This document shows, piece by piece, positions 10,432 through 62,674 of a stretch of 64,000 nt of DNA. The notes under the pieces were generated by a model, which saw nothing but the letters and a program-made list of their open reading frames with translations, was not told the origin of the DNA and searched no databases. Position numbers and translations under genes: made by a program. Numbering within the stretch: position 1 is the first letter of the stretch; the number at the start of each line of letters is the position of its first letter. The stretch comes from an uncultured Luminiphilus sp. (GTDB lineage: Bacteria; Pseudomonadota; Gammaproteobacteria; Pseudomonadales; Halieaceae): the NCBI GenBank assembly GCA_938084055.1, contig CALKDK010000014.1, positions 1 through 64,000 on the forward strand. Reading direction: 5' to 3'.

Positions 10432-12555
<2,124 letters not shown>

Positions 12556-41748: not shown

Positions 41749-43334
41749 GTATCTGGTTCGTACCGCGTGACGCAGCCGCCCGATCCGTTGGCGCAGACCA
41801 GATCGCCGAGGCATTGGAAGCCCAGGGGTTGGAAGTGGTGCGAACCGGGAGCAGGGGCCTGCTCTGGTTGGAACCTTTGGTGGAGCGGGCTGACTCCAGA
41901 GATGGTGTTCGTGTGGGCTGGGGCAACGTCAGGGCGAGCGATGTGACGGCATGCCTCCCTGAAGAGTCTGATGAGTCCTACCTCGGGGAAGTTGAGCAAT
42001 TAGACTACCTGGCCTGTCAGGATCGCTGGATCTACCAGCGTGTCGGTGTGATCGACCCTGTCGATCCTGCGGATTTTATTGCCCATGGTGGTTTGTCCGG
42101 ATTGAGACGCGCCCTCGATATGAGCCCTGATGCCGTTGTGGATGAGGTCTTTGAGTCGGGCCTGCGCGGTCGTGGTGGCGCCGGATTTCCAACCGGCATT
42201 AAATGGCGCACGGTTGCACAACAAAATCCTGCAGTCCATGCCGGTGATCCTGCCGATGCGCCGCGCCATAAATACATCTGTGTTAATGCCGACGAGGGAG
42301 ACAGCGGTACCTTTGCCGACCGTATGCTTATGGAAGGCGACCCTTTTTGCCTGCTTGAGGGCATGGCCATTGCGGCCCATGCCGTGGGTGCTGACCTTGG
42401 CATCGTTTACCTGCGTTCCGAGTATCCTGCGGCTATCGCAGTGCTTACAGAGGCCATCATCAAGGCTCGGGAGTTGGGTTGGCTGGGTCAGGGTATACTG
42501 GGTTCGGACTGTAATTTTGACGTCACGATCCGTGTGGGTGCGGGCTCCTACGTCTGCGGTGAAGAAACAGCCATGCTGGAGAGTTTGGAAGGCCGTAGGG
42601 GCATGGTCCGCGCGAAGCCTCCCCTGCCAGCTATAGAGGGGTTGTTTGGTACCCCTACGGTTATCAACAACGTCCTTACCATAGCCAGCGTACCCTCCAT
42701 ACTCGCGCGTGGTGCAGAGGCATACGCGGCACTGGGTGAAGAGCGCTCCCGGGGGACACAGGTATTCCAGCTTGCGGGCAATATCGCCCGGGGCGGTATT
42801 GTAGAAGTGGCTTTTGGTATTTCTGCGCGGGAGTTGGTGCTGGAACTTGGGCAGGGCACGCGTTCGGGTCGTCCACTGAGGGCGGTGCAGATCGGTGGTC
42901 CACTGGGTGCTTATTTGCCGGCCGATGCATTGAATATACCGATGGCCTACGAGTCTCTGGCCGCGGCGGGTGCCATGTTGGGCCACGGTGGTCTGGTAGT
43001 ATTCGATGATACGGTTGATATGGCGGAACAGGCGCGCTTTGCCATGGAGTTCTGTGTCGAAGAGTCCTGTGGCAAATGTACACCCTGCAGGATTGGGGCA
43101 GTACGCGGTGTTGAAGTTATTGACGATCTGCTGGCGTCCGATGACCCTGCAGCGTCAGAGCGGCTGTTGCGGGATCTCTGTGATGTGATGACTCAGGGAT
43201 CACTCTGTGCGATGGGGGGGCTGACCCCGCAGCCGGTCTTGAGTGCTCTGGATCAGTTTCCGGAAGATTTTAGGGTTGGGGGCGGTGTGCAATCTCCTGC
43301 AACCCGGGGAGTGAGTCATGAACAAGCCAATTGA
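41745..43334 (+). CDS. fdsB: NAD-dependent formate dehydrogenase beta subunit (NuoF-like)
   Basis: A 529-residue NADH/FMN subunit. An N-terminal thioredoxin-like extension (about 1-100) precedes the NuoF core: GRGGAGFPTGIKW for NAD/FMN, NADEGDSGTFADRMLMEGDP, and SYVCGEETAMLESLEGRRG. The [4Fe-4S] ligands are in SCGKCTPCRIG and the late Cys of GSLCAMGG. It reduces NAD+ with electrons from formate. An ATGA overlap with fdsG at the start and a 17-bp overlap with fdsA at the end show coupled translation. Confidence 0.95.
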   Translation: MSIWFVPRDAAARSVGADQIAEALEAQGLEVVRTGSRGLLWLEPLVERADSRDGVRVGWGNVRASDVTACLPEESDESYLGEVEQLDYLACQDRWIYQRVGVIDPVDPADFIAHGGLSGLRRALDMSPDAVVDEVFESGLRGRGGAGFPTGIKWRTVAQQNPAVHAGDPADAPRHKYICVNADEGDSGTFADRMLMEGDPFCLLEGMAIAAHAVGADLGIVYLRSEYPAAIAVLTEAIIKARELGWLGQGILGSDCNFDVTIRVGAGSYVCGEETAMLESLEGRRGMVRAKPPLPAIEGLFGTPTVINNVLTIASVPSILARGAEAYAALGEERSRGTQVFQLAGNIARGGIVEVAFGISARELVLELGQGTRSGRPLRAVQIGGPLGAYLPADALNIPMAYESLAAAGAMLGHGGLVVFDDTVDMAEQARFAMEFCVEESCGKCTPCRIGAVRGVEVIDDLLASDDPAASERLLRDLCDVMTQGSLCAMGGLTPQPVLSALDQFPEDFRVGGGVQSPATRGVSHEQAN

Positions 43335-46523: not shown

Positions 46524-49094
46524 ATGGCACAGCTACCCGAACATGCGCGCGTCATCATCGTTGGTCAGGGAGGCATCGTTGGTGCCTCGGTGGCCCATCA
46601 TCTTGTCGCTGCGGGCTGGGACAATATTGTCGGTCTCGAGAAATCAGCAATACCCACGGATATCGGCTCCACGTCCCACGCCTCCGATTTTTGTTACATG
46701 ACCTCCCACGACAAACTCAATGTTTTTACCAGTACGTACAGCCGGGAGTTCTACAAGTCCAGGGGGAATTTCATCGAGATAGGTGGCATGGAGGTGGCGC
46801 GTAAGGGTGACCATGCCCAAATGCAGGAGTTGCTGAGAAAGGTGGCCTCGGGCAAGGCTTTCGGTACCAATGCGCGCATGATTTCTGCTGCGGAGGCCAA
46901 AGAGCGGTTCCCGCTTCTCGAGGAAGACCTGATTGAAGGTGCCATGTGGGATCCTGATGCCGGCCTTGTCACCCCGCGCTCACAGAAGGTGGCGGGTGAT
47001 CTGGTCGACGAGGCCGTGGCGGCAGGCAAGCTCAAAGCATTTCCCTATACCCCTGCCCAGCGCATCCTTGTCGAAGACGGTCGCGCAGTCGGGGTGGAGA
47101 CGGCCAAAGGGACCATCATGGCAGACTACGTGGTTTTGTGTGCCGGCATTTGGGGCTCACTGGTTTCTCACACCGCGAACGTAAAGCTGCCTCTGATGCC
47201 CGTAGAGCATCCGCTGCTATTCTTTGGACCCTGGGATGCCCTGGAAGGCACAGGGAAGGATATTGTTTATCCACTGTTTCGTGATCAGGGCAACTCGGCT
47301 TATGTCAGGGATACCGGTGATCCGACCACGCCGGAGGGCGGTCTGTTGGAGTGGGGCTACTATGAGCCCTTCGAACCGCGCATTGTTGAGGCCACGGCCA
47401 TCATGGAACCCGAGGATGCGCGCATGTCGCCCTCAATGAATGACTTGGCGCTGGACCAGGTGCTTGATGCTTATGAGCGTTCGGTGGAGCTGACACCTGT
47501 TTTGGCAGAACTGCCCTGGGAGGAACGCCGCTCCTTTAATGGTTTGCTCTCTGTGACCACCGATGGCGGTTCAGTGATTGGTGAATCCCCTGCAGTCAAA
47601 GGCCTTTGGCTTTGCGAGGCCGTTTGGGTTAAGGACGGTCCGGGAGCTGGCAAGCTTCTCGCAGACTGGATGACCGACGGACGCACCAGTATGGATCCGC
47701 ACGGTGTCGACCCTGCGCGTCATTACCCGATTCAATTGACGGATGAATTCATTCGTAACCGCAGCTATGAGATTGCCCAGAAGATTTACACCCCAGCGGT
47801 TCACCCCCGGGAACCCTATGCCTCCTCCCGGGTTCTGCGCACCAGCCCGTTCTATGAGCGCGAGGTGGCGTTGGGAGGGTACTTCATGGAAGTCGCAGGT
47901 TGGGAGCGCGCCCATGGCTACGCGGCCAATGAGGCGACGCTACTTGCGCAGTACCGGGACCGCGTGCCAGTGCGTGAAGCTGAATGGGACAACCGGCATT
48001 TCTGGGAGGTCTCCAACGCGGAGCATCTTGCATTGAGCGACAGTGTGGGCATGATCAATCTGTCGCATTTTGCCATCTTCGATGTGGTCGGCCCTGATGC
48101 CGAAGCCCTCATGGAGTACTTGTCGGTGGCCAAGGTGGGTGGCAATACCGCCGTGGGCAAAGGGGTGTATACCCACTTCCTAGACCATGTCGGTGGGATC
48201 CATTCGGATCTCACTATCGTGCGTCTTGCGGAGGACGCCTACCGAGTAATTTGTGGTGGCGATACCGGCCACCGAGATTACGTCTGGATGCAGCGTATGC
48301 GCGATAAGCTGGGTTTGGTTCATGCCGAGTTCATCGATCAAAGCGAGCAACTGGCGACTCTGGGTCTCTGGGGCCCGGAGGCCCGGGCGACCCTCCAGAG
48401 GTTGATGGATGACCCTGAGAGTGTCTCAACTGAGACCTTCCCCTATGCGACGACCAAGGAGATCGATGTCTGCGGTGTCAAGGTGTGGGCGTTTCGCATC
48501 TCCTATGTCGGGGAACAGGGATGGGAACTTTATTTTCCCTTTGCCGACGGGCTCAAGCTTTGGGATGCCCTCGCGGACTTGGGTGTGAACCCCGTGGGCA
48601 TTGAAACCTATGCCAACAGTCGTCGCCTGGAGAAAAGCTTACGATTACAAAATGCCGATCTTGAAATCGACTATAACCTGTACGAAGCAGGCCTTGCCCG
48701 ACCCAAAGTGAAGGCCAATGACTTCCACGGCAAGGAAGCGTACGTCGCCCAGCGGGCTTTACCCGAGCAGGCAGCCTACCTTTGCACTTTGGTTCTCGAG
48801 GACACCACGGATGATGCGGGCACGGTGCGCTATCCCGTGGGTCAATGGCCGCTGCTGGATGCTGATACCCTTGAGGTGGTCATCGACGCCCACGGTCGCC
48901 GCTCCTACACCACCAGCGTTGCTTACGGACCCTCACTCGGGCAGAACATCGCCATGGGCTACCTGCCGGCAGCCCGTGCCAAAGAGGGAGATGCGGTTGT
49001 GATGGAGTATTTCGGCAACTTCTTCCCTGCAAGAATTGTTGCGGTGGGTTATGGTGCGCTGCTCGACCCTGATAATGAGCGGGTCAAGAGCTGA
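46524..49094 (+). CDS. Dimethylglycine/sarcosine dehydrogenase-like flavoprotein with C-terminal GcvT domain
   Basis: An 856-residue two-part enzyme. The N-terminal DAO-type FAD domain has VIIVGQGGIVGASVAHHLVA and a conserved His in GSTSHASDFCYM, the place where DMGDH links FAD covalently; the usual WHAAG reads SHASD here. A linker domain leads to the C-terminal aminomethyltransferase (GcvT) half with YLSVAKVGGNTAVGKGVYTH and GIETYANSRRLEKSLR. Such enzymes oxidatively demethylate N-methyl amines and hand the C1 unit to THF, with electrons going to ETF. Next to fhs and formate dehydrogenase the product methylene-THF would go to formyl-THF, formate and CO2. The true substrate is not fixed by sequence. 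Confidence 0.85.
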   Translation: MAQLPEHARVIIVGQGGIVGASVAHHLVAAGWDNIVGLEKSAIPTDIGSTSHASDFCYMTSHDKLNVFTSTYSREFYKSRGNFIEIGGMEVARKGDHAQMQELLRKVASGKAFGTNARMISAAEAKERFPLLEEDLIEGAMWDPDAGLVTPRSQKVAGDLVDEAVAAGKLKAFPYTPAQRILVEDGRAVGVETAKGTIMADYVVLCAGIWGSLVSHTANVKLPLMPVEHPLLFFGPWDALEGTGKDIVYPLFRDQGNSAYVRDTGDPTTPEGGLLEWGYYEPFEPRIVEATAIMEPEDARMSPSMNDLALDQVLDAYERSVELTPVLAELPWEERRSFNGLLSVTTDGGSVIGESPAVKGLWLCEAVWVKDGPGAGKLLADWMTDGRTSMDPHGVDPARHYPIQLTDEFIRNRSYEIAQKIYTPAVHPREPYASSRVLRTSPFYEREVALGGYFMEVAGWERAHGYAANEATLLAQYRDRVPVREAEWDNRHFWEVSNAEHLALSDSVGMINLSHFAIFDVVGPDAEALMEYLSVAKVGGNTAVGKGVYTHFLDHVGGIHSDLTIVRLAEDAYRVICGGDTGHRDYVWMQRMRDKLGLVHAEFIDQSEQLATLGLWGPEARATLQRLMDDPESVSTETFPYATTKEIDVCGVKVWAFRISYVGEQGWELYFPFADGLKLWDALADLGVNPVGIETYANSRRLEKSLRLQNADLEIDYNLYEAGLARPKVKANDFHGKEAYVAQRALPEQAAYLCTLVLEDTTDDAGTVRYPVGQWPLLDADTLEVVIDAHGRRSYTTSVAYGPSLGQNIAMGYLPAARAKEGDAVVMEYFGNFFPARIVAVGYGALLDPDNERVKS

Positions 49095-49180: not shown

Positions 49181-49912
49181 TTGACACAATGGCACGAGAA
49201 GTTCCCACCGGATGTCAGCGACGCTGTGAAGGTCAGTAGAAACCAGATTACATTTACCGTACTCGTCATCGCGGCGACCGTCGGGGTGACGCTCGCGGTG
49301 TCCGGATACTGGATGCAGTGGCAGGCCCGCAGCGGTGGTTACGGGGGTTTCAGTGAGGCCCCGGCATTGATTGCACTACCAGAGCCTCGACCCCTCGCTA
49401 AATTTACCCTTGTGGACGACGCCAAGAATATTTTTGATTTTCAGGCCCTGGAGGCACGTTGGTCATTTGTCTTTTTCGGGTTCATGTACTGTCCGGATAT
49501 TTGTCCCACCACGCTTCAGGATCTTAGCCAGGTCAAACGGGAAATCCTGGCCATGGGCATTCCCGACGAGGCTGTACAGTTTGTTTTCATATCCGTCGAT
49601 CCCGCACGGGATAAAGGTGAGCAGATCAGCAAATACGTGGCGTATTTTGACGCCGGCTTTTTGGGCGCAACGGGTTCAATTGGCCAGCTAAACAACCTGA
49701 CGCGCCAGCTGGGAGCGCCCTTTATGGCGGGTGAGAATGCCGGGGATGACATCTATGAAGTCGTTCATTCAAGCGCGGTGTACCTGATTGATCCAAGGCA
49801 GCGCTATGCCGGCCTGATCAGTTCACCTTTTGTTGCCTCGGATGTTGCGGAGGAATTTGCGGAGCTGTATCGGGCCGCCAAGGATGGCAGCCCGGAAGAT
49901 CAATCAGGCTGA
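49181..49912 (+). CDS. SCO1/SenC/PrrC-family copper chaperone (cytochrome oxidase assembly)
   Basis: A 243-residue inner-membrane thioredoxin-like protein with one TM helix (about 25-45). The metal site is intact: CPDICP (CxxxC) in FGFMYCPDICPTTLQDL and the distal His in YEVVHSSAVYLID. It inserts or reduces the CuA centre of oxidase subunit II. The start is uncertain: TTG at 49181 or GTG at 49229, neither with a good ribosome site. It converges with the cox operon, with 4 bp between its stop and that of the 52-residue protein, so it serves that oxidase without sharing its transcript. Confidence 0.9.
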   Translation: MTQWHEKFPPDVSDAVKVSRNQITFTVLVIAATVGVTLAVSGYWMQWQARSGGYGGFSEAPALIALPEPRPLAKFTLVDDAKNIFDFQALEARWSFVFFGFMYCPDICPTTLQDLSQVKREILAMGIPDEAVQFVFISVDPARDKGEQISKYVAYFDAGFLGATGSIGQLNNLTRQLGAPFMAGENAGDDIYEVVHSSAVYLIDPRQRYAGLISSPFVASDVAEEFAELYRAAKDGSPEDQSG

Positions 49913-49916
49913 CCGC

Positions 49917-50075
49917 TCAGCCGTTCTTTTCCGCATGCACACCATCAACCCGCTCAGGTACGGTTTTGTTGTGGTCAACCAGCACAAATGCAAACACGTA
50001 CATCAGGACTGTTAACAGCAACAGGATGGTGGCGTGGGGAATATAGTTAGTGCTCGAGTCTTTCTGACCGCCCAT
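49917..50075 (-). CDS. 52-residue single-pass membrane protein at the end of the cox operon
   Basis: This gene is too short for the ORF track. Frame 50075 to 49917 encodes MGGQKDSSTNYIPHATILLL, a hydrophobic stretch (residues about 15-33) with one Tyr and one Met, and a polar tail ending HAEKNG. AGGA sits six bases before the ATG. It follows the subunit IV gene by 47 bp on the same strand. It is most likely a small accessory subunit or assembly factor of the oxidase, like CcoQ/CtaF-type small subunits in role; I do not recognise a named family. Confidence 0.75.
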   Translation of the reverse strand: MGGQKDSSTNYIPHATILLLLTVLMYVFAFVLVDHNKTVPERVDGVHAEKNG

Positions 50076-50122
50076 TGTTTCCTACCTACTTTTCCAGTGA
50101 CAAATAATGGTTCCAACCCGCA

Positions 50123-50512
50123 TCAATGTGCTGGCGGGGGCGCTGGGCCTGTTTGCACCAGTTCCTGCAGGAAGTAGATGGCCCGGTTAAAGAACGTCCA
50201 GTCTGCCTCCAGGGATCCGATGGCGACGAACGTGAGCAAGAGCAGCGGCGGCAGCAGTATGAAATACACCATGGCCAACCGTTCCCAAACCATATGCATG
50301 AACACTGCAATGATCAAGCCAGCCTTCAGAACCATGAACAGGAGAATCAGGAACCAGCGCATATAACCCTGGATCTGGTAATAGTCCACGGCGTAGGACA
50401 TGGCACTCAGTACGAACAGCAAAATCCATATCTTGAAGTACACCCCAAGCGGATGCTGGATGGCCTCTTCTTCCTTTACAACAGGCTCGTGCCCATCAGC
50501 TACGTGTTCCAT
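50123..50512 (-). CDS. Cytochrome c oxidase subunit IV family protein
   Basis: A 129-residue membrane protein with three predicted helices (about 27-46, 50-75, 80-100). The segments YFKIWILLFVLSAMSYAVDY and FMVLKAGLIIAVFMHMVWER are typical of the bacterial COX4/CyoD-like subunit; the internal H-M-V-W-E motif after the second helix is conserved. It is the small stabilising subunit of the haem-copper oxidase. Its ATG lies 9 bp after the subunit III stop. Confidence 0.88.
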   Translation of the reverse strand: MEHVADGHEPVVKEEEAIQHPLGVYFKIWILLFVLSAMSYAVDYYQIQGYMRWFLILLFMVLKAGLIIAVFMHMVWERLAMVYFILLPPLLLLTFVAIGSLEADWTFFNRAIYFLQELVQTGPAPPPAH

Positions 50513-50521
50513 GACTACTCC

Positions 50522-51241
50522 CTACCAAAGATAGAAAAATGCAAAGATAAAGACCCAGACGAGATCAACGAAGTGCCAGTACAGGCCCATAATCTCAATC
50601 TCCTCGTAATTTCCGCCCCGTTTCGTAAACCACCCGGGTTGCCGGTCGTCGAGATGCCCTTTGGACACCTTGTAGGCCATGATGAACAAGAAGATCACCC
50701 CAATGGTGACGTGGGTACCGTGGAACCCGGTCACCATGAAGAATACCGATCCAAACTGGGCCGCTCCCATGGGATTGGCCCATGGTCGAACGCCTTCATC
50801 AATGATCAGTTTGCTCCACTCGAATACCTGCATGCCAACGAACGTGGCACCCAGTACGGCGGTGGCAATCAGCAGCCAGAAGGTCTTTCTTTTATCCTTG
50901 CGGTAGCCGAAATTTACCGCCAGGGCCATCGTGCCACTGCTGGTAATGAGGACGAAGGTCATAATGGCGATGAGAATAAGTGGAATCGGGGCGCCGCCAA
51001 AACTCAGCGCAAATACCTCACTGGAATTGGGCCAGGGGTCCAGGGTGGACATCCTGACGGTCATATACGACGCGAGGAAACAACCAAAGATGAAGGTGTC
51101 ACTTACGAGAAAGATCCACATCATGGCCTTTCCCCAGGGTACGCCTTTGAAGGCGCGCTGGTCAGACGACCAGTCTTCAATGACACCCTCCAGACCAGGT
51201 TTCAGTTCCAGTGAATCGGACGCTACATTCTGTGCAGACAT
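50522..51241 (-). CDS. Cytochrome c oxidase subunit III
   Basis: A 239-residue polytopic subunit III. Conserved marks are MVTGFHGTHVTIGVIFLFIM and the C-terminal YWHFVDLVWVFIFAFFYLW, plus the Glu in FVGMQVFEWSKLI. It is the second of two subunit-III-like genes in the operon; this one is the longer, classical form. It lies 15 bp after the first. Confidence 0.92.
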   Translation of the reverse strand: MSAQNVASDSLELKPGLEGVIEDWSSDQRAFKGVPWGKAMMWIFLVSDTFIFGCFLASYMTVRMSTLDPWPNSSEVFALSFGGAPIPLILIAIMTFVLITSSGTMALAVNFGYRKDKRKTFWLLIATAVLGATFVGMQVFEWSKLIIDEGVRPWANPMGAAQFGSVFFMVTGFHGTHVTIGVIFLFIMAYKVSKGHLDDRQPGWFTKRGGNYEEIEIMGLYWHFVDLVWVFIFAFFYLW

Positions 51242-51256
51242 GACTGGTCTCCCTTA

Positions 51257-51916
51257 CTAAATTACACCGCAGATCCGCAGGAGGATCTCAAAATTATTAC
51301 CGCTGAATAGCAGGCCGAATACCAGCAGCCAGACGCCGAGCAAGTAGTGCCAGTACAGGGCGCAGTTGGAAATATTGGCCTCCATTTTATGGGTATCCCC
51401 GGGCTGGAACGCTCTTTTGGTAGCGCGAACCAGAGCCAGCATGCCACCGGCCATATGCAGGCCGTGGACACCTGTGATCATGAAAAAGAAACCGACGGAT
51501 GGGTTGCTGAAATCTCCCAGCACCAGGGTCGTCAATTGCTGCCAGGCGGTCCACTGACCCACCAGAAAGAGGACGGTCAGGATACCGGCAGCAACAAGCC
51601 CATTTCTCACCCAAAGTATCCGCCCCGCACGGGCGCCCATCAATGCAAACTGCAGACAGAGGCTGCTCAGCAGTAACACGCCCGTATTTGCCCAAAGCAG
51701 ATTAATTTGTGGGGTAGGGCGCCAGTCCTGGTACAACATCCGACCGCCGTAAGCGACGATCATCAACAGGAAAAACACGCTGACCACGCTCAGTAACATT
51801 TTTAACGCGGAGCGTCGGGATTTCAGTGCAATTTCTGCCCCGGAGAGGGCCGGTGCTACCGGGCCGGTATCCGCAATCCAGGGGGTTTCGGAAAAAATTC
51901 CTGTGCCAGTGCTCAT
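51257..51916 (-). CDS. Cytochrome c oxidase subunit III-like protein (second copy)
   Basis: A 219-residue subunit III homologue. It has FFFMITGVHGLHMAGGMLAL and ends with CALYWHYLLGVWLLVFGLLF, but its N terminus is divergent and it has fewer conserved acidic residues. Two adjacent subunit III genes recall the coxMNOP-type alternative oxidases of alphaproteobacteria. It begins 10 bp after the subunit I stop. Confidence 0.9.
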   Translation of the reverse strand: MSTGTGIFSETPWIADTGPVAPALSGAEIALKSRRSALKMLLSVVSVFFLLMIVAYGGRMLYQDWRPTPQINLLWANTGVLLLSSLCLQFALMGARAGRILWVRNGLVAAGILTVLFLVGQWTAWQQLTTLVLGDFSNPSVGFFFMITGVHGLHMAGGMLALVRATKRAFQPGDTHKMEANISNCALYWHYLLGVWLLVFGLLFSGNNFEILLRICGVI

Positions 51917-51926
51917 ATCTCTCTCC

Positions 51927-53687
51927 TCAGGCCGTTACAGAGCGCGGTGGGACGTTCTGAGGAATGAAATCCTCCTCGTGCCCGGGCACGCTGTAGTCAT
52001 AGGCCCATCGATACACGCAGGGCAGTTCCTTGCCAAAGTTGCCATGCTCCGGTGGCGTGTGCTCGGTCTGCCACTCCAGCGTCGTGGCATTCCATGGGTT
52101 CCCCGGAGCTTTCTCGCCCTTGAAAGCACTCCAGATCAGATTCCAGAGAAACACCAGTTGGGCAAAGCCAACGACGAGGGCCGCAATCGTGATGCTGGCA
52201 TTCACCGCATGGGCCGATTCTGGCAGGAAGGTGGTACCGGTAATTTCAAAATACCGTCGTGGAACGCCCATGATTCCCAGGTAGTGCATGGGCAGGAATA
52301 CGAGGTAGGACCCGACGAAAGTGGTCCAGAAATGGAACTTGGCCATACCTTCGTGATACCAGCGACCGGAGATCTTGGGGTACCAGTGATAAATCGCGCC
52401 GCAGACCACCATGACCGGCGCAACAGCCATAACCATGTGGAAGTGGGCGACGACAAAGAGCGTATCGGACAGGGGCATGCTGACCGTTGAGTTGCCAAGG
52501 AACAATCCTGTCATGCCACCATTGACGAAGAACAGTAAAAAAGCGATCGAGAAAAGCATCGGTGTTGTCAGGTGGATGTTGCCCTGCCACAGCGTCAGTA
52601 CCCAGTTGTACACCTTAAGGGCTGTGGGAATTGCAATGATCAGCGTTGTTGTTGCGAAGAAGAAGCCAAAGTAAGGGTTCATTCCGCTGACATACATATG
52701 GTGAGCCCAGACCACAAAGCTCAGCGCGCCGATAATCACAATAGCCCAGACCATCATTCGATAGCCGAAAATGTTCTTTCGGGCATGCACGCTGATCAGA
52801 TCGGATACGATACCGAAGGCGGGCAGCGCCACGATGTACACCTCAGGATGTCCAAAGAACCAAAACAAATGTTGGAACAGCAGAGGGTTACCACCCACAT
52901 GCTCAGCCTCACTACCCATCGATACGATGGCAGGCATGAAAAAGCTGGTACCCAGCAGGACATCCAGCGCCATCATAATGGCGCTGACAAACAGGGCCGG
53001 GAAGGCAAAAAGGGCGAGTACGGTGGCCGTAAAGATACCCCATATGGTGAGGGGCATTCTCATCAGGGTCATACCCCGCGTGCGTGCCTGCAGGATTGTC
53101 ACTACGTAGTTCAATCCGCCCATGGTGAAGCCGATAATGAAGACAGCCAGAGACGCCAGCATAAGCAGGATGCCGGCCTCTGATCCGGGTGTTCCCGGCA
53201 GGATGGCCTGGGGCGGATACAAGGTCCAACCGGCGCCTGTGGAGCCGCCACCGACAAAAAAGCTGGCCGCTAACAGCAGCACCGCTGTGAAATAGACCCA
53301 GAAGCTGATCATGTTCAGCCAGGGAAAGACCATATCCCGGGCGCCCACCATGAGTGGTATGAGATAGTTACCAAAGCCACCCAGAAACAGCGCCGTGAGC
53401 AGGTAAACCACCATGATCATGCCGTGCATGGTGACGGCCTGCAGGTAGTAGGCGGGATCTATGAAGGTAAAGGTATTGGGCCATGCGAGTTGCAGGCGCA
53501 TGAACCAGGACAGCACGAGCGCAACAAGCCCAATGGCCAGTGCAGTTGCCGCGTACTGAATTGCAATAACCTTTGCATCCTGGCAGAAAACGTATTTACC
53601 CAGCCAGGTTTTGGGATGGTAAAGCTCCATCTCCCCAACCTCGGCTGGCCGTACAAAAATGCTCTCATCGTGTGCAGTGTATTCCAT
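51927..53687 (-). CDS. Cytochrome c oxidase subunit I (haem-copper oxidase)
   Basis: A 586-residue, 12-helix catalytic subunit. All ligands are visible: haem a His in VTMHGMIMVVYL, CuB His with the crosslinked Tyr and proton-channel Glu in FWFFGHPEVYIV, CuB pair in WAHHMYVSG and the haem a/a3 pair in VAHFHMVMAV. The HPEVY form marks an A1-type, high-proton-pumping enzyme. It follows subunit II by 43 bp. It reduces O2 with electrons from cytochrome c. Confidence 0.95.
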   Translation of the reverse strand: MEYTAHDESIFVRPAEVGEMELYHPKTWLGKYVFCQDAKVIAIQYAATALAIGLVALVLSWFMRLQLAWPNTFTFIDPAYYLQAVTMHGMIMVVYLLTALFLGGFGNYLIPLMVGARDMVFPWLNMISFWVYFTAVLLLAASFFVGGGSTGAGWTLYPPQAILPGTPGSEAGILLMLASLAVFIIGFTMGGLNYVVTILQARTRGMTLMRMPLTIWGIFTATVLALFAFPALFVSAIMMALDVLLGTSFFMPAIVSMGSEAEHVGGNPLLFQHLFWFFGHPEVYIVALPAFGIVSDLISVHARKNIFGYRMMVWAIVIIGALSFVVWAHHMYVSGMNPYFGFFFATTTLIIAIPTALKVYNWVLTLWQGNIHLTTPMLFSIAFLLFFVNGGMTGLFLGNSTVSMPLSDTLFVVAHFHMVMAVAPVMVVCGAIYHWYPKISGRWYHEGMAKFHFWTTFVGSYLVFLPMHYLGIMGVPRRYFEITGTTFLPESAHAVNASITIAALVVGFAQLVFLWNLIWSAFKGEKAPGNPWNATTLEWQTEHTPPEHGNFGKELPCVYRWAYDYSVPGHEEDFIPQNVPPRSVTA

Positions 53688-53730
53688 GATTATCTCTCGG
53701 TTTTGTCTGCTGTGTTGGCTGTGCCGTGGG

Positions 53731-55098
53731 TTACAGGGTATTGATGTAGGCGACCATGTCGGTCACGGCTTCATCGTCTACCAGGGTATTTGAAAGAAGC
53801 CCCATCTGTAGCCCGTAAAGGTCGTCACTGTGCCGGCCGCGGATGCCCGCCCGGAACTTCTGTAACTGTTCAGCCATGTACCAATCATCCAGATCAGTCA
53901 GTGCCGGCGCATTGACCGTCCAGACACCGCGACCATCACCACCGTGGCATTGAGCGCAGGTGGACTGGTAGAGGGCGGCGGAGTTGGCCGGATCTCCAGC
54001 GATGGTGTCGGTCAGTTCGGCGCCGGGCAGGGTATTGATGTAGGCGACTACGTTTTCAATGGCGCTGGCATCAGCCAACGTCATGGCCATGGGTGCCATG
54101 GTCTGGCCCCACACATCGTCTTCATGGGTACCCCTGACACCCCGTTTAAAGTGGCGCAGCTGGCGCTTCATGTACTCGGAATCCATCCCGGCAAGGCGGG
54201 GTGCGTGCATTGCCGCATTACCCTCGGCATTCGCGCCGTGACACGAGCCGCATACTGCATAGGCAGCCTGACCGGCAACCAGATCCGACGATAATGCGGT
54301 CTGGGTTTCGGCAAATGTGGGTTGATCTGCCACCCAACGGGTGTAGGTTTCGGTATCTTCAACGACGACTCGGCCGCGCATGGCGTAGTGACCCACACCG
54401 CAGAGCTCCTCGCACAACAGGTCATAACTTCCAACTTTATTGGGCTCAGCCCAGATGTAGGAAACCTGCCCGGGAACAAAGTCCATTTTCACCCTGAATT
54501 GGGGCACAGTGAAGTTGTGAAGGACATCGGTAGATCGCAACAGGAACGTCACCGGTTGATCCACTTCCAGGTGCAGTACCGGGTCGTACACGATGACATC
54601 GTCTTTTCCAAACGGGTCTGTGGGATCGATTCCCAGGGGATTGTCTGCGCTGGTATGGCTGACATCCACCGCACCCAGCTTGCCATCGTCGCCTGGAAGC
54701 CGGTAGGACCAATTCCATTGCCGCGCCAGAACTTCAACTTCCAGCGCATCGTCGGGTGGCGTGACAACGTCTGCCCATATAAAGAGGCCGGGTGCCAGCA
54801 TGGCAGCCACGCCGACCGTGGTCAGGCCCGTCAGCCAACTCTCCATTTTTACACTCTCGGGTTCGTACTCGGCCCGGCGCCCTTCCTTGTTCCGAAATTT
54901 GATCACGCAGTAGGCGATAAACCCGTTGACCGCGACGAAACCAATGCCGGTAACGATAAAAGTGAGTGTCACCGTATCATCCATTGCGCTCCAATTGGAT
55001 GCGATGGGTGTGAAATACCAGGGACTCAAAAAGTGAAACAGGACCGTCCCGAAAACCAGGACGAGCAGAACAATTGCAAATACCATAAACAACCTCAT
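53731..55098 (-). CDS. Cytochrome c oxidase subunit II fused to two cytochrome c domains
   Basis: A caa3-type subunit II with an extra haem domain, about 455 residues. Two N-terminal TM helices (about 3-25 and 40-60) come first. The cupredoxin CuA domain follows, with His in VLHNFTVPQFRV and CEELCGVGHYAMRG. Two c-type domains end it: CGSCHGANAEG near 285 and CAQCHGGDGRG near 390. I start at ATG 55098 (MRLFMVFAIVLLVLVFG); the track's extra 21 codons have no support. The tethered di-haem tail lets the oxidase take electrons without a free cytochrome c, or from several donors. Confidence 0.93.
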   Translation of the reverse strand: MRLFMVFAIVLLVLVFGTVLFHFLSPWYFTPIASNWSAMDDTVTLTFIVTGIGFVAVNGFIAYCVIKFRNKEGRRAEYEPESVKMESWLTGLTTVGVAAMLAPGLFIWADVVTPPDDALEVEVLARQWNWSYRLPGDDGKLGAVDVSHTSADNPLGIDPTDPFGKDDVIVYDPVLHLEVDQPVTFLLRSTDVLHNFTVPQFRVKMDFVPGQVSYIWAEPNKVGSYDLLCEELCGVGHYAMRGRVVVEDTETYTRWVADQPTFAETQTALSSDLVAGQAAYAVCGSCHGANAEGNAAMHAPRLAGMDSEYMKRQLRHFKRGVRGTHEDDVWGQTMAPMAMTLADASAIENVVAYINTLPGAELTDTIAGDPANSAALYQSTCAQCHGGDGRGVWTVNAPALTDLDDWYMAEQLQKFRAGIRGRHSDDLYGLQMGLLSNTLVDDEAVTDMVAYINTL

Positions 55099-55160
55099 GT
55101 ACGCTGTGTACAAGGTACACCAGCGTCCCCCAATGCGCGGTCGCCCGTGACAGGACCCCA

Positions 55161-55188
55161 ATTACAACACTGTCCGTAGCTTAGGTAA
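55161..55188 (-). promoter_or_regulatory. Possible promoter of the cox operon
   Basis: On the minus strand TTACCT (-35-like, 55188-55183) and TGTAAT (-10-like, 55166-55161) are 16 bp apart, about 63 bp before the subunit II ATG. The -10 matches five of six consensus bases, the -35 only three. Confidence 0.3.
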
Positions 55189-55857: not shown

Positions 55858-56457
55858 GAGCCCTCCTTATTTTTTATTATCGTTTGGACCGCTGGTAAGA
55901 CCCGAAGTCAGTGTCGTACTGACGGTCCCTCTGGTACCACCTCCGCGCTTCTCTGAGCCCGTGAGTCATCTGAAGACAGCGCTTCATTGGCAGTGAGTAT
56001 AGTGCGCCAATTACGAGAATGAAAGTCAGTTTCTCAATCCCGTTCCGAGCTCGCCTGCCAGGCCAGGAATTGTGAAAACCCAACCTATTTTGCAATTGAC
56101 ACCGACGGGGTGGGTCGCAGTCCGGTGGGCGTGCAGCTTGCGACGATAGTCTTTGCCAGTGAGCTGGGCGGCCGGTTGATTCAGGCCCCTCTCCAGTAAA
56201 TCGGGCCAGGTGCGCAAGGGTGCTCGGGGAGAGCTTAACGGGGGCAAGATTTTTCACCCCGCTGTATGGTTTTCTGTTCGGGATTGGACCACACTAGCGC
56301 CTGAATTGGACTTGTGGGGCGGCCAGGGAGGGCGATGAACCACTGATAACGATTGACCGCCGGGAATGTACAGTGCATCCAAGCGGGGAGTCGTTATCCA
56401 AGGTGTTCGGTTTTCAGCGAACAGCGTCCTGCAGCCACTGCCGACCAAGGGGAGGGT
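55858..56457. other. 600-bp intergenic region with a doubtful small ORF
   Basis: Divergent control region for the DUF1269-like gene and the GlxA-type regulator. The minus-strand 126-codon frame (55877-56257) is not protein-like in its first part. Its last 50 codons encode a short hydrophobic stretch (LTFILVIGALYSLP) and a very basic tail, which could be a 36-residue peptide from ATG 55987, but without a ribosome site. TTGACA occurs at 56095-56100 without a good -10. Ribosome site GGGGAGGG lies directly before the regulator ATG. Confidence 0.4.
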
Positions 56458-57480
56458 ATGCCGATGCGTGACAACATGCGTCCGAGTGACGGGGCCACCC
56501 CTTATCACGTCGGATTTTTGCTGGTTGAAAATTTCACCCTGATCTCACTCTCCAGTGCGCTGGAACCCCTCCGTATTGCGAATTTGCAGTCGGGCCGTTC
56601 CCTCTACCGTTGGGGATTGGTCGGGGGTGGCCCCACGCACCAGGTCTGCAGTGACGGCATTCCGGTAACACTTGATTACACCCTCGAGAGTGCACCCACA
56701 TTTGACCTGGTTATCGTCGTGGGGGGCATCGGTATCGAGCAGAGCCTGCCCCGTCCCCTCATCAGCTGGTTACGCAAACAGGCCCAGCGTGGTGTGGTGA
56801 TGGGTTCGGTCTGCACGGGTGCCTATGCACTGGCGGCTGCCGGGTTATTGGATGGTTATCAGTGCAGCGCTCATTGGGACTGCCTGACCGTCCTTACAGA
56901 CCGTTTTCCCCGAATTGCCTGTAACAACCAGCTGTATACGCTGGACAGGGATCGAATGACCTGTACGGGCGGGACCATTCCCATGCACATGATGTTGGCA
57001 CTGCTTTCATCCCGGCACCCACAGGCCCTGGTTGATGCGGTGGCCGATATGTTGGTCTGCGAACGGTACCGTGCGGATGTTGAAATGCAGCTGGTGCCCA
57101 TGTGGTCCCGCAAAGTGGAGATGCAGCCCAAGCTTAAAGAGGTACTGCAACTCATGGAAGCAAACCTCGAGGAGCCGATTCCGCTGCAGGAGCTGGCAGA
57201 TTTTGTCGCCTTGTCCCGGCGCCAGCTGGAAAGGCTGTTTCTCAAGTACTTGCACTGTACCCCTTCGAGGTACTACCTCAAGCTGCGTTTGGACCGCGCT
57301 CGACGACTCGTCAAGCAAAGCTCGCGCTCTATTGTGGAAATTACCTCCATGTGTGGTTTCGTCTCTACGACCCACTTCAGCCGCTGCTATCGAAAATACA
57401 TCGGGGTTTCGCCGCGGGTTGACCGACTCAACTGTCAGCCGGAATTGCAGCCCGCGGCCAACGAAGCCCTCAGTGCATGA
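56458..57480 (+). CDS. GlxA-family transcriptional regulator (DJ-1/PfpI domain + AraC HTH)
   Basis: A regulator of about 340 residues. The N-terminal amidase-like DJ-1/PfpI domain has the nucleophile-elbow Cys in VVMGSVCTGAYALAAAGLL, which in these regulators usually binds rather than hydrolyses ligands. The C-terminal AraC domain (about 230-320) contains the two helix-turn-helix units (IPLQELADFVALSRRQLERL and IVEITSMCGFVSTTHFSRCY). Relatives include GbdR and CdhR, which sense betaine-derived methylamines or carnitine. The ATG at 56458 follows GGGGAGGG. It lies upstream of the methanethiol locus and is a candidate for its control or that of the flavoprotein/epimerase genes (inference). Confidence 0.9.
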   Translation: MPMRDNMRPSDGATPYHVGFLLVENFTLISLSSALEPLRIANLQSGRSLYRWGLVGGGPTHQVCSDGIPVTLDYTLESAPTFDLVIVVGGIGIEQSLPRPLISWLRKQAQRGVVMGSVCTGAYALAAAGLLDGYQCSAHWDCLTVLTDRFPRIACNNQLYTLDRDRMTCTGGTIPMHMMLALLSSRHPQALVDAVADMLVCERYRADVEMQLVPMWSRKVEMQPKLKEVLQLMEANLEEPIPLQELADFVALSRRQLERLFLKYLHCTPSRYYLKLRLDRARRLVKQSSRSIVEITSMCGFVSTTHFSRCYRKYIGVSPRVDRLNCQPELQPAANEALSA

Positions 57481-57640: not shown

Positions 57641-58972
57641 TTATCTTGCGGACCCGGCGCCCGGGGCCACGTAATCGTGACGCAGGGTATCCCCGATCGC
57701 TGCACTGCGGGCGTCAGCCACCAGGGCGTCGACATTGCTGCCGGTCAGCGATTGGAGAAATAGCACCAGGGCGGCCTGGTCCTCCCGGGGAATGTGCAGA
57801 GGGCGGATACGGGAATCCTGCGCGGGGTCGCCGCCGCCGCCTTCTGCGTAAAATTGCACGACGGCCTCCAAGGTGGCGAGGGAGCCATCGTGCATGTAGG
57901 GTGCTGTGAGTCCCACGTTACGCAGGCTGGGGGTCCTGTAGCGCCACCGATCTTCAGCCGCGCCACTGACTTCCACCCGTCCATCATCGGTAAATTTTTC
58001 TGTTTCCACGTCGACCTGCGGGGTGACGTAGACACCAGGTGCTACTTGCAAGCGCTGCGGTCTGGATCCCCGTTGCGCCCGCAAAAATCCGGTCCCCGTA
58101 TTGTGGAACATACCATCGGTGAACAGAGCTGTTTGTTCACCGATGCTGTGGCAGGACTGGCAGCCCTGGGTCAGGAATACCTCAAAGCCACGGATTTCCG
58201 GTGCCTTGAATCCGGCAACGCCATCGGTGGGTCTCGTGGTTTGGAAATACCAGCGGTCAAAGGGGGAGTCACCGCTGACCAGTGCGCGCTGGTAGGAAGC
58301 AAGGGCGCGGCCCAGATTTTTTTCGGTGAGACCATCTGCAAAGATGGTGTTAAAAGCAGTCGAGTACGCAGGGATATCCTCCAGTCGGCGGATCACGGCT
58401 TGCCTCGAGGGGTTTGCCATCTCATTTCTCGCCAGCAGCGGCGACCAAACCTGCGCCACCAGCGAGGACTCCCGACCATCCCAAAAGAGCTGGCTCAGGA
58501 AGGCCACGTTATATAGGGAGGGTGCATTGCGGCGTCCGCCCCGACCTTCGTCACCCACGGGTGTCGCCAGTTCGTTTTGCGTAAAACCCTGCTCAGGCAC
58601 ATGGCACATGCCGCAAGACAGGTTGGAATTGGTGGACAATCTTCGGTCAAAAAACAGGGTGCGCCCGAGGTCAACCTCCGCCGCCCGCAGTGTCATGTTG
58701 GTTCCCGGTAGCCCCTTTTGTATCGCATTTGCGATGTCCGCCAGGGGGAGTCGTTCACCAAAAGTTTCCAGAATGGCTTCTGAGTTGGTGGCGTAATGGG
58801 GCGATTCATAGCCCTCCCGGTTGTCTGCCATTCCCACTCTGTATTCCGATTGCGCCCAGACGTCTCCTCCTGCATTGACAGTGAGAAGGGCCAAGCCGGT
58901 CGCAACCATCTGAACTGTTGCAAATACAGCGGTGAAAGGGTGCTGTTTCTTTTTCGAAAGTGCTAGGCTCAT
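57641..58972 (-). CDS. MauG/cytochrome c peroxidase-family di-haem protein
   Basis: A periplasmic di-haem protein of about 443 residues. A signal peptide (about 12-40) is followed by two haem sites, CGMCHVPEQG and CQSCHSIGEQ, and by MauG/CcpA segments such as DLGRTLFFDRRLSTNSNLSC and TPSLRNVGLTAPYMHDGSL. In bacteria with mtoX, a mauG homologue beside it is thought to modify MtoX residues into its active form. Here it is divergent from mtoX with a gap of only 31 bp (or 13 bp if ATG 58990 is used), which supports that pairing. It could also be a peroxidase for H2O2 made by MtoX. Confidence 0.88.
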   Translation of the reverse strand: MSLALSKKKQHPFTAVFATVQMVATGLALLTVNAGGDVWAQSEYRVGMADNREGYESPHYATNSEAILETFGERLPLADIANAIQKGLPGTNMTLRAAEVDLGRTLFFDRRLSTNSNLSCGMCHVPEQGFTQNELATPVGDEGRGGRRNAPSLYNVAFLSQLFWDGRESSLVAQVWSPLLARNEMANPSRQAVIRRLEDIPAYSTAFNTIFADGLTEKNLGRALASYQRALVSGDSPFDRWYFQTTRPTDGVAGFKAPEIRGFEVFLTQGCQSCHSIGEQTALFTDGMFHNTGTGFLRAQRGSRPQRLQVAPGVYVTPQVDVETEKFTDDGRVEVSGAAEDRWRYRTPSLRNVGLTAPYMHDGSLATLEAVVQFYAEGGGGDPAQDSRIRPLHIPREDQAALVLFLQSLTGSNVDALVADARSAAIGDTLRHDYVAPGAGSAR

Positions 58973-59003
58973 GGCGTAAGGATAATGCATTGGAGAGAAG
59001 ACC
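58973..59003 (+). promoter_or_regulatory. Very short mauG-mtoX divergent control region
   Basis: The 31 bp between the two start codons contain GATAAT at 58981-58986, a good -10 toward mtoX, and GGAG at 58992-58995, its ribosome site. No -35 match lies at the proper distance; any promoter must extend into mauG-like coding DNA. Confidence 0.3.
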
Positions 59004-60359
59004 ATGATTCGAAAGTTAATCGGCATAGTGACAGCCCTCATTGCGGTGGCCGCACCCTTAGCCTGGGCAGATGAGACGTGCATGTCGCCCTACATGGCAA
59101 AGATTGTGGGGCAGGAGGACTATGTCTATATCTGGACGCTGGGTATGGAGGGCGTGGGCGATGGCGAGGACAAACTCGTAACGGTCGATGTCAATCCTGA
59201 ATCGGAGAGTTTTGGCGAGGTTGTACACAGCCTGTCCGTCGGTGGCCGTAATGAGGCCCATCACTCGGGTCTCACAGATGATCGCCGTTATCTTTGGGCT
59301 TCGGGCCTCGATACCAGCAAGATCTTTATTTTCGACATTCATACAGATCCTGCGCAGCCCAGAATACATCGCGAGATTGATGACTTCGTTGCCAAAACAG
59401 GCGGCATTGTGGGGCCGCACACCAACTATGCGCTGCCGGGCCGGATGCTTATCACTGGATTGTCCAACAACCGTGATCATGGCGGTCGTACCGGCATGGC
59501 CGAATACACCAATGATGGTGACTTCATCACCAGCGTCTGGATGCCCACCGATGACAACCTGCAGGGGGCGGTGAAATCCGGAAATTACGCTGACGGGTAC
59601 GGCTATGATGCCCGAGCGCTGCCGCGCCGTAATGTTTTGGTCACGTCATCTTTTACCGGCTGGAACAATTACATGATGAACCTCGGGAAAATGATGGCTG
59701 ACCCCGAGGCGATGAAGCGATTTGGCAATACGGTTGTTATCTGGGATCTGCACGCCCGCACGCCCAAAAAAGTGCTCGACGTGCCCGGTGCGCCCCTGGA
59801 ACTGCGATGCGCCTGGGGTTCCCGCTCTAACTACTGTTTTACTACGACGGCGCTCACGTCCAAAATCTGGCTTATTCATGAGGATGAAGCGGGGGAATGG
59901 CATGCGACGGCGGTGGCTGATATCGGAGACGCCAGCAAGATACCCCTGCCCGTGGATATTTCCATTTCCGCAGATGACAACCATCTCTGGGTCAACACCT
60001 GGAACGATGGCAAGGTACGACTTTTCGATATTTCGAACCCCCATGCCCCGGAGCAGGTTTTCGAGAAGCGCATCGGCGAACAAATCAATATGGTGTCCCA
60101 AAGCTGGGACGGCGAGCGCGTCTACTTCACCTCCTCACTGCTGGCGAATTGGGACAAGACCGGTTCGGGGGCGGGGGATGACGGCGATGTGCAGTACTTC
60201 AAGCTGTTCCATTGGGACGGTGAGTCTCTGACCCCGGAGTTCAGTCTTGATTTTGTTGAAATGGGATTGGGGTCGCCACACCAGATGCGTTTTGGTGCCC
60301 ACGCGTTGTACGGCCAGCCAGCGACCAAAATGGACCACGATGGCATGGCAGCGCGCTGA
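59004..60359 (+). CDS. mtoX: Methanethiol oxidase (SBP56 family), periplasmic
   Basis: A 451-residue protein of the selenium-binding-protein-56 family with an N-terminal signal peptide (about 1-23), as in bacterial MtoX. The beta-propeller repeats are visible, with GGRNEAHHSGLTDDRRYLWA, LSNNRDHGGRTGMAEYTNDG and SFTGWNNYMMNLGKMMADPE as conserved family blocks. MtoX oxidises methanethiol with O2 and water to formaldehyde, sulfide and hydrogen peroxide, and is a copper enzyme. The neighbours fit the known mtoX locus: a SCO1/SenC gene overlapping its end and a divergent mauG homologue. The formaldehyde would feed the C1 genes to the left. Methanethiol comes mostly from DMSP or methionine breakdown. 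Confidence 0.9.
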   Translation: MIRKLIGIVTALIAVAAPLAWADETCMSPYMAKIVGQEDYVYIWTLGMEGVGDGEDKLVTVDVNPESESFGEVVHSLSVGGRNEAHHSGLTDDRRYLWASGLDTSKIFIFDIHTDPAQPRIHREIDDFVAKTGGIVGPHTNYALPGRMLITGLSNNRDHGGRTGMAEYTNDGDFITSVWMPTDDNLQGAVKSGNYADGYGYDARALPRRNVLVTSSFTGWNNYMMNLGKMMADPEAMKRFGNTVVIWDLHARTPKKVLDVPGAPLELRCAWGSRSNYCFTTTALTSKIWLIHEDEAGEWHATAVADIGDASKIPLPVDISISADDNHLWVNTWNDGKVRLFDISNPHAPEQVFEKRIGEQINMVSQSWDGERVYFTSSLLANWDKTGSGAGDDGDVQYFKLFHWDGESLTPEFSLDFVEMGLGSPHQMRFGAHALYGQPATKMDHDGMAAR

Positions 60360-61038
60360 GGCAGTGCGTCGTGTCCTGACTGGGCTGTTGGTCTGCTGTT
60401 GGACAGCCACCATGGCGGCTGCCCCCCATGAGCACACGCCGCCCGTGGTGCTGGCGCCCGGCTACGAGGAGCTTGAATTTGTGCCGCCTGTTGCCGGGAC
60501 TTACCAGCTTCCCCCTATGGGTGACGCTGCGGATGGTCCTGTGCTGGATACGCTGGGTAAGGCCGGACGATTGCATGATTACCTGGGTGAAAAAGCGACG
60601 GTCCTGAGCTTCATTTTCACCACATGCAATGACGTAAATGGCTGCCCACTGGCAACCTATGTCATGAGTGGCGTGCAGGCGGCGGTGCTCGAAGAGGCGA
60701 GCCTCGCGGACAGTGTCCGACTGGTCAGCTTCAGTTTCGATCCGGAGAAGGACACGCCGGAGGCGTTGGGCCGTTACGGAGACCAGTTCAGATCCCAGGG
60801 CTTTGACTGGCAGTTTTTAACGACAGCTTCCGAGGATGACCTGCGCCCCATACTGGACGCCTATGACCAATGGGTTATTCGGGATTACGACCGGGAGGGC
60901 AACTATCTGGGTACCATGTCCCACGTGCTGCGTGTGTACCTGATTGATGCAGACCGACAAATCCGGAACATCTACAGCACCTCTTTCCTGCACGCCGACA
61001 CGGTGATCAACGATCTTAGGAGCCTGCTGCTGCAGTAG
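60340..61038 (+). CDS. SCO1/SenC-domain copper protein of the mtoX locus
   Basis: A thioredoxin-fold SCO protein of about 232 residues with a signal peptide (LTGLLVCCWTATMAAAP). The metal site reads TTCNDVNGCPLATYVM, so the two cysteines are spaced CX5C instead of the usual CX3C; the distal His candidates are in GTMSHVLRVYLI. SCO homologues adjacent to mtoX are thought to deliver copper to MtoX. I start at ATG 60340, overlapping the mtoX stop by 20 bp; GTG at 60364 is an equally good alternative. A perfect hairpin overlaps its stop codon. Confidence 0.87.
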   Translation: MAWQRAEAVRRVLTGLLVCCWTATMAAAPHEHTPPVVLAPGYEELEFVPPVAGTYQLPPMGDAADGPVLDTLGKAGRLHDYLGEKATVLSFIFTTCNDVNGCPLATYVMSGVQAAVLEEASLADSVRLVSFSFDPEKDTPEALGRYGDQFRSQGFDWQFLTTASEDDLRPILDAYDQWVIRDYDREGNYLGTMSHVLRVYLIDADRQIRNIYSTSFLHADTVINDLRSLLLQ

Positions 61039-61049
61039 CAGCAGGCTCC
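61019..61049 (+). terminator. Perfect 13-bp hairpin spanning the SCO stop codon
   Basis: Thirteen bases at 61019-61031 (GGAGCCTGCTGCT) and 61037-61049 pair perfectly around a 5-base loop GCAGT; the TAG stop is at the loop and 3' edge. No T-run follows, so intrinsic termination is doubtful; an end-protecting mRNA structure is more likely. Confidence 0.45.
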
Positions 61050-61249
61050 GCAGCGTCACCAGTACGGGCTTTCCCAAGGAGCCGATAAATAACCATGTCG
61101 ATGGGACTTGCCCTACACTATTTGGTTAGCCCGCGGCGCGGGTATGGGCGCATCACTATCGGCTTTGCAGTGGTCTGCCAGTGTCGGTCAGGCGGTGTCC
61201 AACCCATCTTCGTCGCTGCACAGAACGACGTTTAGAACGCAAGGAATCC

Positions 61250-62674
61250 ATGATGTACATAGACGGTCAGTGGCTCACCGAGGGTCCGAACTTTGAGGTG
61301 GTCAATCCTGCCACGGGGGCCAAACTTGGGTCAGTTCTGGATGCCAGTACTGATCAGGTTCAGGCAGCCATCACAGCAGCAGAGGGGGCGCTGCCTGGCT
61401 GGTCCGGTGCGACCGCCTACGACCGCGCAACGATTCTCTATCGTGCCCATACGCTGATGATGGAGAGGCAGCGCAGCCTGGCTGAACTCATGACCGCGGA
61501 GCAGGGCAAGCCACTCAAGGCCGCAATGAACGAGGTGAAATACGCGGCGGACTTTTTACTGTGGTTCGCGGAGGAGGCCAAGCGAATTTATGGGGAAACG
61601 ATCCCCTCCGCGCGCCCAGACCAGCGTTTTCTTGTGCACAAACAGGCGGTCGGCGTGGTGGCTGCCATCACACCCTGGAATTACCCGATTTCAATGTTGA
61701 CCCGAAAACTGGGGCCAGCGCTCGCGGCGGGCTGCACGGCGGTCTTGAAGCCTGCGGAGTCCACGCCACTGTGTGCCATTGCTGTATTTGAAATCCTCGA
61801 TGACGCGGGACTGCCGCCTGGCGTAGCCAACCTGGTGACCGTCAGCGATCCCAGACCCGTGGGCGACTTGTTTTGTACCCATCCCGCGATCCGCAAATTG
61901 ACCTTCACCGGCTCTACCGCGGTGGGCAGGCATCTGGCGCAATTAGCAGCTCCCCAGTTGAAGCGTGTGTCCATGGAATTGGGTGGCCACGCTCCGTTTA
62001 TCGTATTTGATGATGCGGATCCCGTGCATGCAGCCAAGGGTGTTTCACTGGTGAAGTTTTTGAATACCGGGCAAGCCTGTATCAGTCCAAACCGCATTTT
62101 TGTACAGCGCGCAATTCTTGAGCCCTTCCTCAAGACGCTTGAGGCGCGCGTGGCAAGACTGCGCGCCGGGGATGGCACGGACCCGGCAACCAGCATCGGC
62201 CCCTTGATCAATGAGGCGGCTGTCGCAAAAGTTGATCTACAGGTCCAGGACGCGATAGCCAAGGGTGCAACCTTACACACCGGTGGGTATCGCCTGGTCG
62301 ACGGGGGGCTGGAGCGGGGATGTTTTTATGCCGCCACCCTGCTAAGCGCGGTCAGCCCTGACATGCTCATTTATCGTGAAGAAACATTTGGTCCAGTAGC
62401 GGCTGTCATTCCCTTTGATGAAGAAGATGACGTGGTCGCAATGGCCAACGATACCGAGTACGGGTTGGCGGCCTATATTTACACCCAGAATCTCTCACGG
62501 GCGCTGCGAACCTTTGAACAGCTCAATTTCGGCATCATTGGTATCAACGACATCAATCCCACCAGCGCAGCCGCACCCTTTGGTGGTATGAAGGCAAGCG
62601 GCCTGGGTCGTGAGGGTGCCCGGGAGGGTATTGATGAGTATCTCGAGACGAAACTCGGGGGGCTGAGTATCTGA
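61250..62674 (+). CDS. NAD(P)-dependent aldehyde dehydrogenase, succinate-semialdehyde-dehydrogenase-like
   Basis: An ALDH of about 474 residues. Catalytic Cys is in NTGQACISPNRIFVQ and the general base Glu in VSMELGGHAPFIVFDDA; the cofactor-binding segment is AAITPWNYPISMLTRKLGPA. The sequence is closest in style to GabD-type semialdehyde dehydrogenases. I start at ATG 61250 with AAGGA upstream; the track frame adds 23 unsupported codons. It lies 200 bp after the SCO gene, and the hairpin between may separate transcripts. Formaldehyde as substrate is possible but unproven; aldehyde from betaine or proline breakdown is another option. Confidence 0.9.
   Translation: MMYIDGQWLTEGPNFEVVNPATGAKLGSVLDASTDQVQAAITAAEGALPGWSGATAYDRATILYRAHTLMMERQRSLAELMTAEQGKPLKAAMNEVKYAADFLLWFAEEAKRIYGETIPSARPDQRFLVHKQAVGVVAAITPWNYPISMLTRKLGPALAAGCTAVLKPAESTPLCAIAVFEILDDAGLPPGVANLVTVSDPRPVGDLFCTHPAIRKLTFTGSTAVGRHLAQLAAPQLKRVSMELGGHAPFIVFDDADPVHAAKGVSLVKFLNTGQACISPNRIFVQRAILEPFLKTLEARVARLRAGDGTDPATSIGPLINEAAVAKVDLQVQDAIAKGATLHTGGYRLVDGGLERGCFYAATLLSAVSPDMLIYREETFGPVAAVIPFDEEDDVVAMANDTEYGLAAYIYTQNLSRALRTFEQLNFGIIGINDINPTSAAAPFGGMKASGLGREGAREGIDEYLETKLGGLSI

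Follow-up and report, generated by a model that had tools for sequence, protein, structure and literature searches.

Genes for the copper-containing methanethiol oxidase MtoX are found together with genes for a SCO protein and a MauG-like protein in many bacteria, including marine gammaproteobacteria, and strain HTCC2080 is represented in the published MtoX tree (Eyice et al., PMC5739008). In R. pomeroyi, knock-out of mtoX abolishes the use of methanethiol (PMC5739008). The copper and cofactor residues and the reactive cysteine of the enzyme have been named in the literature (PMC5739008; PMC10936201), and the equivalents of Trp220 and Trp383 of the protein described below had been proposed as cofactor tryptophans on structural grounds (Eyice et al., PMC5739008). 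R. pomeroyi MtoX yielded sulfane sulfur when it was produced in E. coli with neither MauG nor the SCO protein present (PMC10936201).

The mtoX locus of Luminiphilus

The DNA analyzed here is a stretch of 64,000 nucleotides, called the window, from a draft assembly of 2.92 Mb with a completeness of 82.75%. The original prediction, made from the sequence alone, had spoken of an apparent gammaproteobacterium, and rightly so: the source genome is Luminiphilus (Halieaceae), most closely related to Luminiphilus and other Halieaceae. The predicted mauG-like gene, mtoX and SCO gene are all present between positions 57641 and 61038 (Table 1), with mauG divergent and an overlap of 20 bases between mtoX and the SCO gene, and the family assignments bear out that this is the known mtoX-SCO-mauG gene set. 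The longest open reading frame of the mauG-like gene covers positions 57641-59083 on the reverse strand, and its likely start is at 58972, where the encoded protein begins with a signal peptide (MSLALSKKK...). A consensus scan for a sigma-70-like promoter between the divergent start codons gave nothing above chance.

Table 1. Positions of the genes discussed, as numbered in the window.
Feature	Position	Strand	Evidence or remark
fhs, fdhD and NAD-type formate dehydrogenase subunits	38736..46116	+	
N,N-dimethylglycine oxidase-like FAD/folate enzyme	46524..49094	+	PDB 1pj5, 375 bits; Pfam DAO and GCV_T
Second SCO gene and cytochrome c oxidase genes	49181..55161	+ (SCO, 49181-49912); - (cytochrome c oxidase)	
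DJ-1/PfpI-AraC regulator, GbdR-like	56353..57480	+	467 bits, cut-off 480
MauG/MbnH-like diheme cytochrome c peroxidase-family gene	57641..58972	-	Pfam CCP_MauG, 3e-51
Intergenic gap between divergent mauG and mtoX start codons	58973..59003		31 bases
mtoX, methanethiol oxidase of the SBP56 family, predicted copper-dependent and periplasmic	59004..60359	+	NCBIfam NF052453; 451 amino acids
SCO1/SenC-family copper chaperone	60340..61038	+	Pfam SCO1-SenC, 5.7e-18; Cx5CP motif (CNDVNGCP)
Aldehyde dehydrogenase, SSADH-like	61181..62674	+	Below cut-off

The mtoX-sco pair is retained in nearly every related locus. The mauG gene adjoins it either divergently, as in the window, or downstream on the same strand; around Luminiphilus in the tree, the divergent arrangement is common, and elsewhere the order is mtoX-sco-mauG on one strand. 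Since both the pair and an adjoining mauG are retained among relatives, the arrangement is not due to chance.

MtoX and its genomic surroundings

With 730.6 bits, the SBP56 protein exceeds the cut-off of 650 set for the curated NCBIfam equivalog NF052453. Its identity to R. pomeroyi MtoX is 64%, as against 25-29% to other SBP56 proteins, and it is 90-93% identical to its counterparts in HTCC2080 and Luminiphilus metagenome-assembled genomes. Phylogenetic placement had been proposed as a check, a grouping with non-MtoX SBP56 members being the refuting outcome, and the prediction stood up to it. In a tree that took in R. pomeroyi MtoX and five non-MtoX SBP56 proteins, the MtoX clade is split from the latter with a support of 100, and the Luminiphilus protein falls inside it, together with proven MtoX. 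The reactive cysteine, Cys26 (C28 in R. pomeroyi), lies in a TCMSPYM segment, and the copper ligands His86, His87, His139 and His426 and both proposed cofactor residues, Trp220 and Trp383, are present; all of these are found in 99-100% of 112 MtoX sequences. A Sec-type signal peptide, judged by eye, ends in ...AWA directly before DETC. The AlphaFold model (pLDDT 85) has its best PDB fold match in 2ece, the structure of Sulfolobus SBP56. Judged from its sequence, the protein is a true MtoX, and the function of the locus is very probably that of a methanethiol oxidase. A second, MtoX-like copy found in one other genome (G1163, locus L229) does not reach the cut-off and has neither Cys26 nor His87, and SCO and mauG genes are absent beside it; it may be a diverged paralogue and was left out of the comparisons.

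MtoX was found in 33 of the 120 genomes sampled from the family. Within the genus, DmdA was detected above its cut-off in 14 of the 17 genomes with MtoX versus 2 of the 20 without it (Fisher p 1e-5, uncorrected for kinship); outside the genus, the association was not significant (p 0.18). The genome studied here carries DmdA on contig C4 (453 bits, cut-off 410). Because DmdA co-occurs with MtoX within the genus, a source of methanethiol is likely encoded in the Luminiphilus genome, and Luminiphilus is probably able to consume methanethiol of its own making from DMSP. An acyl-CoA ligase gene at positions 32435-34087 of the window has 3-(methylthio)propionyl-CoA ligase as its best NCBIfam match, with 682 bits at a cut-off of 822, and its product is possibly DmdB.

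The original prediction had placed the formate/THF operon and the intervening cox genes correctly. It had further suggested that the operon and the mtoX locus point to a dedicated methyl-sulfur catabolic island, and this part of the claim stood only partially. The co-occurrence of DmdA and MtoX in the genus agrees with it. However, the fhs/fdh genes are followed by the dimethylglycine oxidase-like gene, and the GbdR-like regulator gene adjoins mauG, a combination that points to betaine C1 metabolism. In the closest relatives (loci L032, L033 and L034, the last from HTCC2080), gbdR and mauG/mtoX come immediately after the dimethylglycine oxidase gene. The cox block, which is missing there, is therefore incidental and was rejected as a functional part of the locus. 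Moreover, DmdA is encoded on contig C4 and the glutathione formaldehyde dehydrogenase (638 bits at a cut-off of 544) on contig C54, and thus a methanethiol source and the product-handling genes do not lie together in one self-contained cluster.

The link between mtoX and fdh is confined to a small clade of closest relatives, whereas the aldehyde dehydrogenase gene is linked to mtoX-sco in most Luminiphilus loci and, downstream in the other mtoX loci of the genus, is the sole retained neighbor. In one of these Luminiphilus loci (L041), the order mtoX-sco-aldehyde dehydrogenase is followed at 11669-12979 by a gene for O-acetylhomoserine aminocarboxypropyltransferase (751 bits, above the cut-off), whose product might, by inferred role, recycle sulfide or methanethiol. 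HTCC2080 has genes for RACo and a pterin-binding methyltransferase downstream of its mtoX locus (L034, 11912-14847), a pair that resembles corrinoid betaine demethylation systems. This pair and the presence of GbdR-like, dimethylglycine oxidase-like and formate dehydrogenase genes next to mtoX in the closest relatives would fit a locus that belongs to a betaine/C1 operon group and whose MtoX mainly detoxifies methanethiol rather than sustaining growth on DMSP sulfur. This explanation appears somewhat improbable, as MtoX co-occurs with DmdA and the betaine genes are absent near most mtoX loci of the genus.

The diheme partner, the SCO protein and Trp220

MauG uses Tyr294 and Trp93. The best NCBIfam match of the MauG-like protein is the MbnH family (TIGR04039), with 207 bits at a cut-off of 363, and it reaches 175 bits against the MauG TTQ maturase family (TIGR03791), at a cut-off of 444. 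The best PDB match of its profile is 6e1c, which we take to be MbnH, with 220 bits versus 172 for MauG. The protein has two CxxCH heme motifs and Tyr375 at the MauG/MbnH-type position; the tyrosine of the FYxxGG segment aligns with a tyrosine in 6e1c, and 87 of the 91 family members have it. The tryptophan of the FWDGR segment, which the Luminiphilus protein has, is not conserved in the mtoX-linked family, where His (48/91), Leu (19/91) and Trp (15/91) occur at this position.

The MauG-like protein might act as a periplasmic peroxidase or as an electron acceptor for MtoX, removing H2O2 or electrons without modifying the enzyme. It is a member of the diheme cytochrome c peroxidase superfamily, H2O2 was reported as a product in older work on homologues, and recombinant MtoX is active without the MauG-like protein (PMC10936201). 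Such a role is nevertheless unlikely, considering that the closest PDB match is a MauG-like diheme protein and not a classical peroxidase, that a tyrosine is present where MauG and MbnH have one, that no H2O2 was seen by Cao et al. (PMC10936201), and that loss of mauG coincides with loss of one specific tryptophan of MtoX, as described below.

The mtoX-linked SCO protein belongs to the SCO1/SenC family (Pfam PF02630, 65.6 bits). Its cysteine pair, C96 and C102, and the distal H195 are conserved in 99-100% of 108 sequences. The pair is arranged as Cx5C (CNDVNGCP), as in nearly all mtoX-linked SCO proteins, whereas the second SCO protein encoded in the window has the canonical CxxxC (CPDICP).

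Six MtoX loci have no adjoining mauG: two on Skermanella plasmids, two on Microvirga plasmids, and those of the genomes G601 and G567. A genome-wide search of the latter two with the MauG profile gave no match at all; the four Skermanella and Microvirga loci were judged from the plasmid sequences. Two other candidates (L009 and L012) were rejected as mauG-less, since a mtoX-type mauG was found elsewhere in both genomes, and four loci at contig edges (L021, L052, L075 and L108) were not counted. The six mauG-less MtoX form one alphaproteobacterial clade inside MtoX, with a support of 100. They retain Cys26 and all copper histidines, and the five that were scanned all pass the MtoX cut-off. In two of these loci (L136, 4615-5814, and L146, 3955-5031), a DJ-1/PfpI-AraC regulator gene, whose architecture matches that of the GbdR-like gene in the window, adjoins mtoX and is divergent from it.

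In all six proteins, Trp220 is replaced (K, K, F, L, F and L). Only 4 of the 124 columns that are at least 97% conserved elsewhere are changed in all six, i.e., T140G, W220, I321L and W329F, and W220 alone drifts to three different residues. In contrast, Trp220 is kept in all mauG-linked MtoX examined, in two sets of 114 and 29 loci that share some contigs; one genome (G864, locus L100) retains it with only a 150-bit MauG relative. Since Trp220 is lost in the mauG-less clade and kept wherever mauG is linked, it may be the residue that the MauG/MbnH-like enzyme modifies, a reading that, with one clade and one evolutionary event behind it, is about as likely as not. Its cross-link partner may be other than Trp383, since this second proposed cofactor residue is kept in the clade and Trp329 is changed.

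Alternatively, Trp220 and mauG may have been lost together by chance or through a change of substrate in this alphaproteobacterial clade, Trp220 not being the target at all. The clade is a single one, T140, I321 and W329 are changed in it as well, and position 220 is also Trp in SBP56 proteins without mauG nearby. Yet, Trp220 is one of the two tryptophans proposed beforehand on structural grounds (PMC5739008; PMC10936201), it is the only one of the changed positions that drifts to three residues, and clades of similar depth retain it, so that coincidental loss, while worth considering, seems somewhat improbable.

The SCO proteins of the mauG-less clade differ as well, having CxxxCP instead of Cx5CP. 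In the SCO tree, these proteins belong to the same lineage as the Cx5C proteins and are not a replacement. A wider version of the idea that Trp220 is the target can tentatively be entertained, with slightly less confidence than the idea itself: the MauG/MbnH-like enzyme would oxidize Trp220, alone or with Trp329 but not Trp383, the Cx5C loop of the SCO protein would be adapted to the matured site, and one alphaproteobacterial lineage would have lost the maturase, Trp220 and the SCO loop jointly but retained Cys26 and the copper histidines.

A mechanism can be proposed from family membership, residues, gene linkage, the DmdA in the genome and the loss of Trp220 without mauG, with activity, copper and products carried over from what has been published on homologous enzymes. 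Methanethiol produced by DMSP demethylation or by the breakdown of methionine would enter the periplasm, where MtoX, a copper β-propeller, would bind it at Cys26 and cleave the C-S bond with O2, releasing formaldehyde and reduced sulfur, either sulfane sulfur or H2S. We infer two further steps: the SCO protein would supply copper to the His86/His87/His139/His426 site, and the diheme enzyme would oxidize Trp220, alone or cross-linked to a second tryptophan, to form a protein-derived cofactor. As R. pomeroyi MtoX expressed on its own in E. coli is active, this cofactor may be dispensable for some activity. The handling of sulfide and peroxide as products, as originally predicted, is contested, since an MtoX with the same reactive-cysteine motif formed sulfane sulfur and no H2O2 (Cao et al., PMC10936201).

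Comparison with known systems

The Luminiphilus mtoX locus is an ordinary one, given that a 90% identical orthologue from HTCC2080 was already included in the mtoX paper of 2017, when gammaproteobacterial mtoX was put on record (PMC5739008). For an abundant coastal clade, it thus bears out what was already known. What is new is the loss of Trp220 together with the CxxxC motif of SCO in the mauG-less clade, which suggests a modest lead on maturation. The role of the mtoX-linked MauG-like protein has long been assumed, and the mauG-less clade offers a natural experiment, be it of one residue and one lineage.

The MauG-like protein shares the diheme fold, two CxxCH motifs and a tyrosine at the ligand position with MauG and with MbnH (6e1c), a protein of copper homeostasis, but it scores under both NCBIfam cut-offs, and the FWDGR tryptophan is variable in the mtoX-linked family. 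The same three gene families make up the loci of R. pomeroyi DSS-3 (SPOA0269-0271) and Hyphomicrobium sp. VS (mtoX-SCO1-mauG) (PMC5739008), and R. pomeroyi MtoX has the same copper histidines, reactive cysteine and proposed cofactor tryptophans, Trp220 corresponding to its Trp223. In contrast to these two loci, where mauG lies downstream, that of Luminiphilus has a divergent mauG, has neither an IclR regulator nor an adjoining glutathione formaldehyde dehydrogenase gene, and continues with an aldehyde dehydrogenase gene instead. The likeness to HTCC2080 is closer. Although no cox genes separate the dimethylglycine oxidase gene from gbdR in its locus, that locus shares with the window the divergent mauG, the SCO and aldehyde dehydrogenase genes, an MtoX of 90% identity, and the same order of fdh, dimethylglycine oxidase and gbdR genes.
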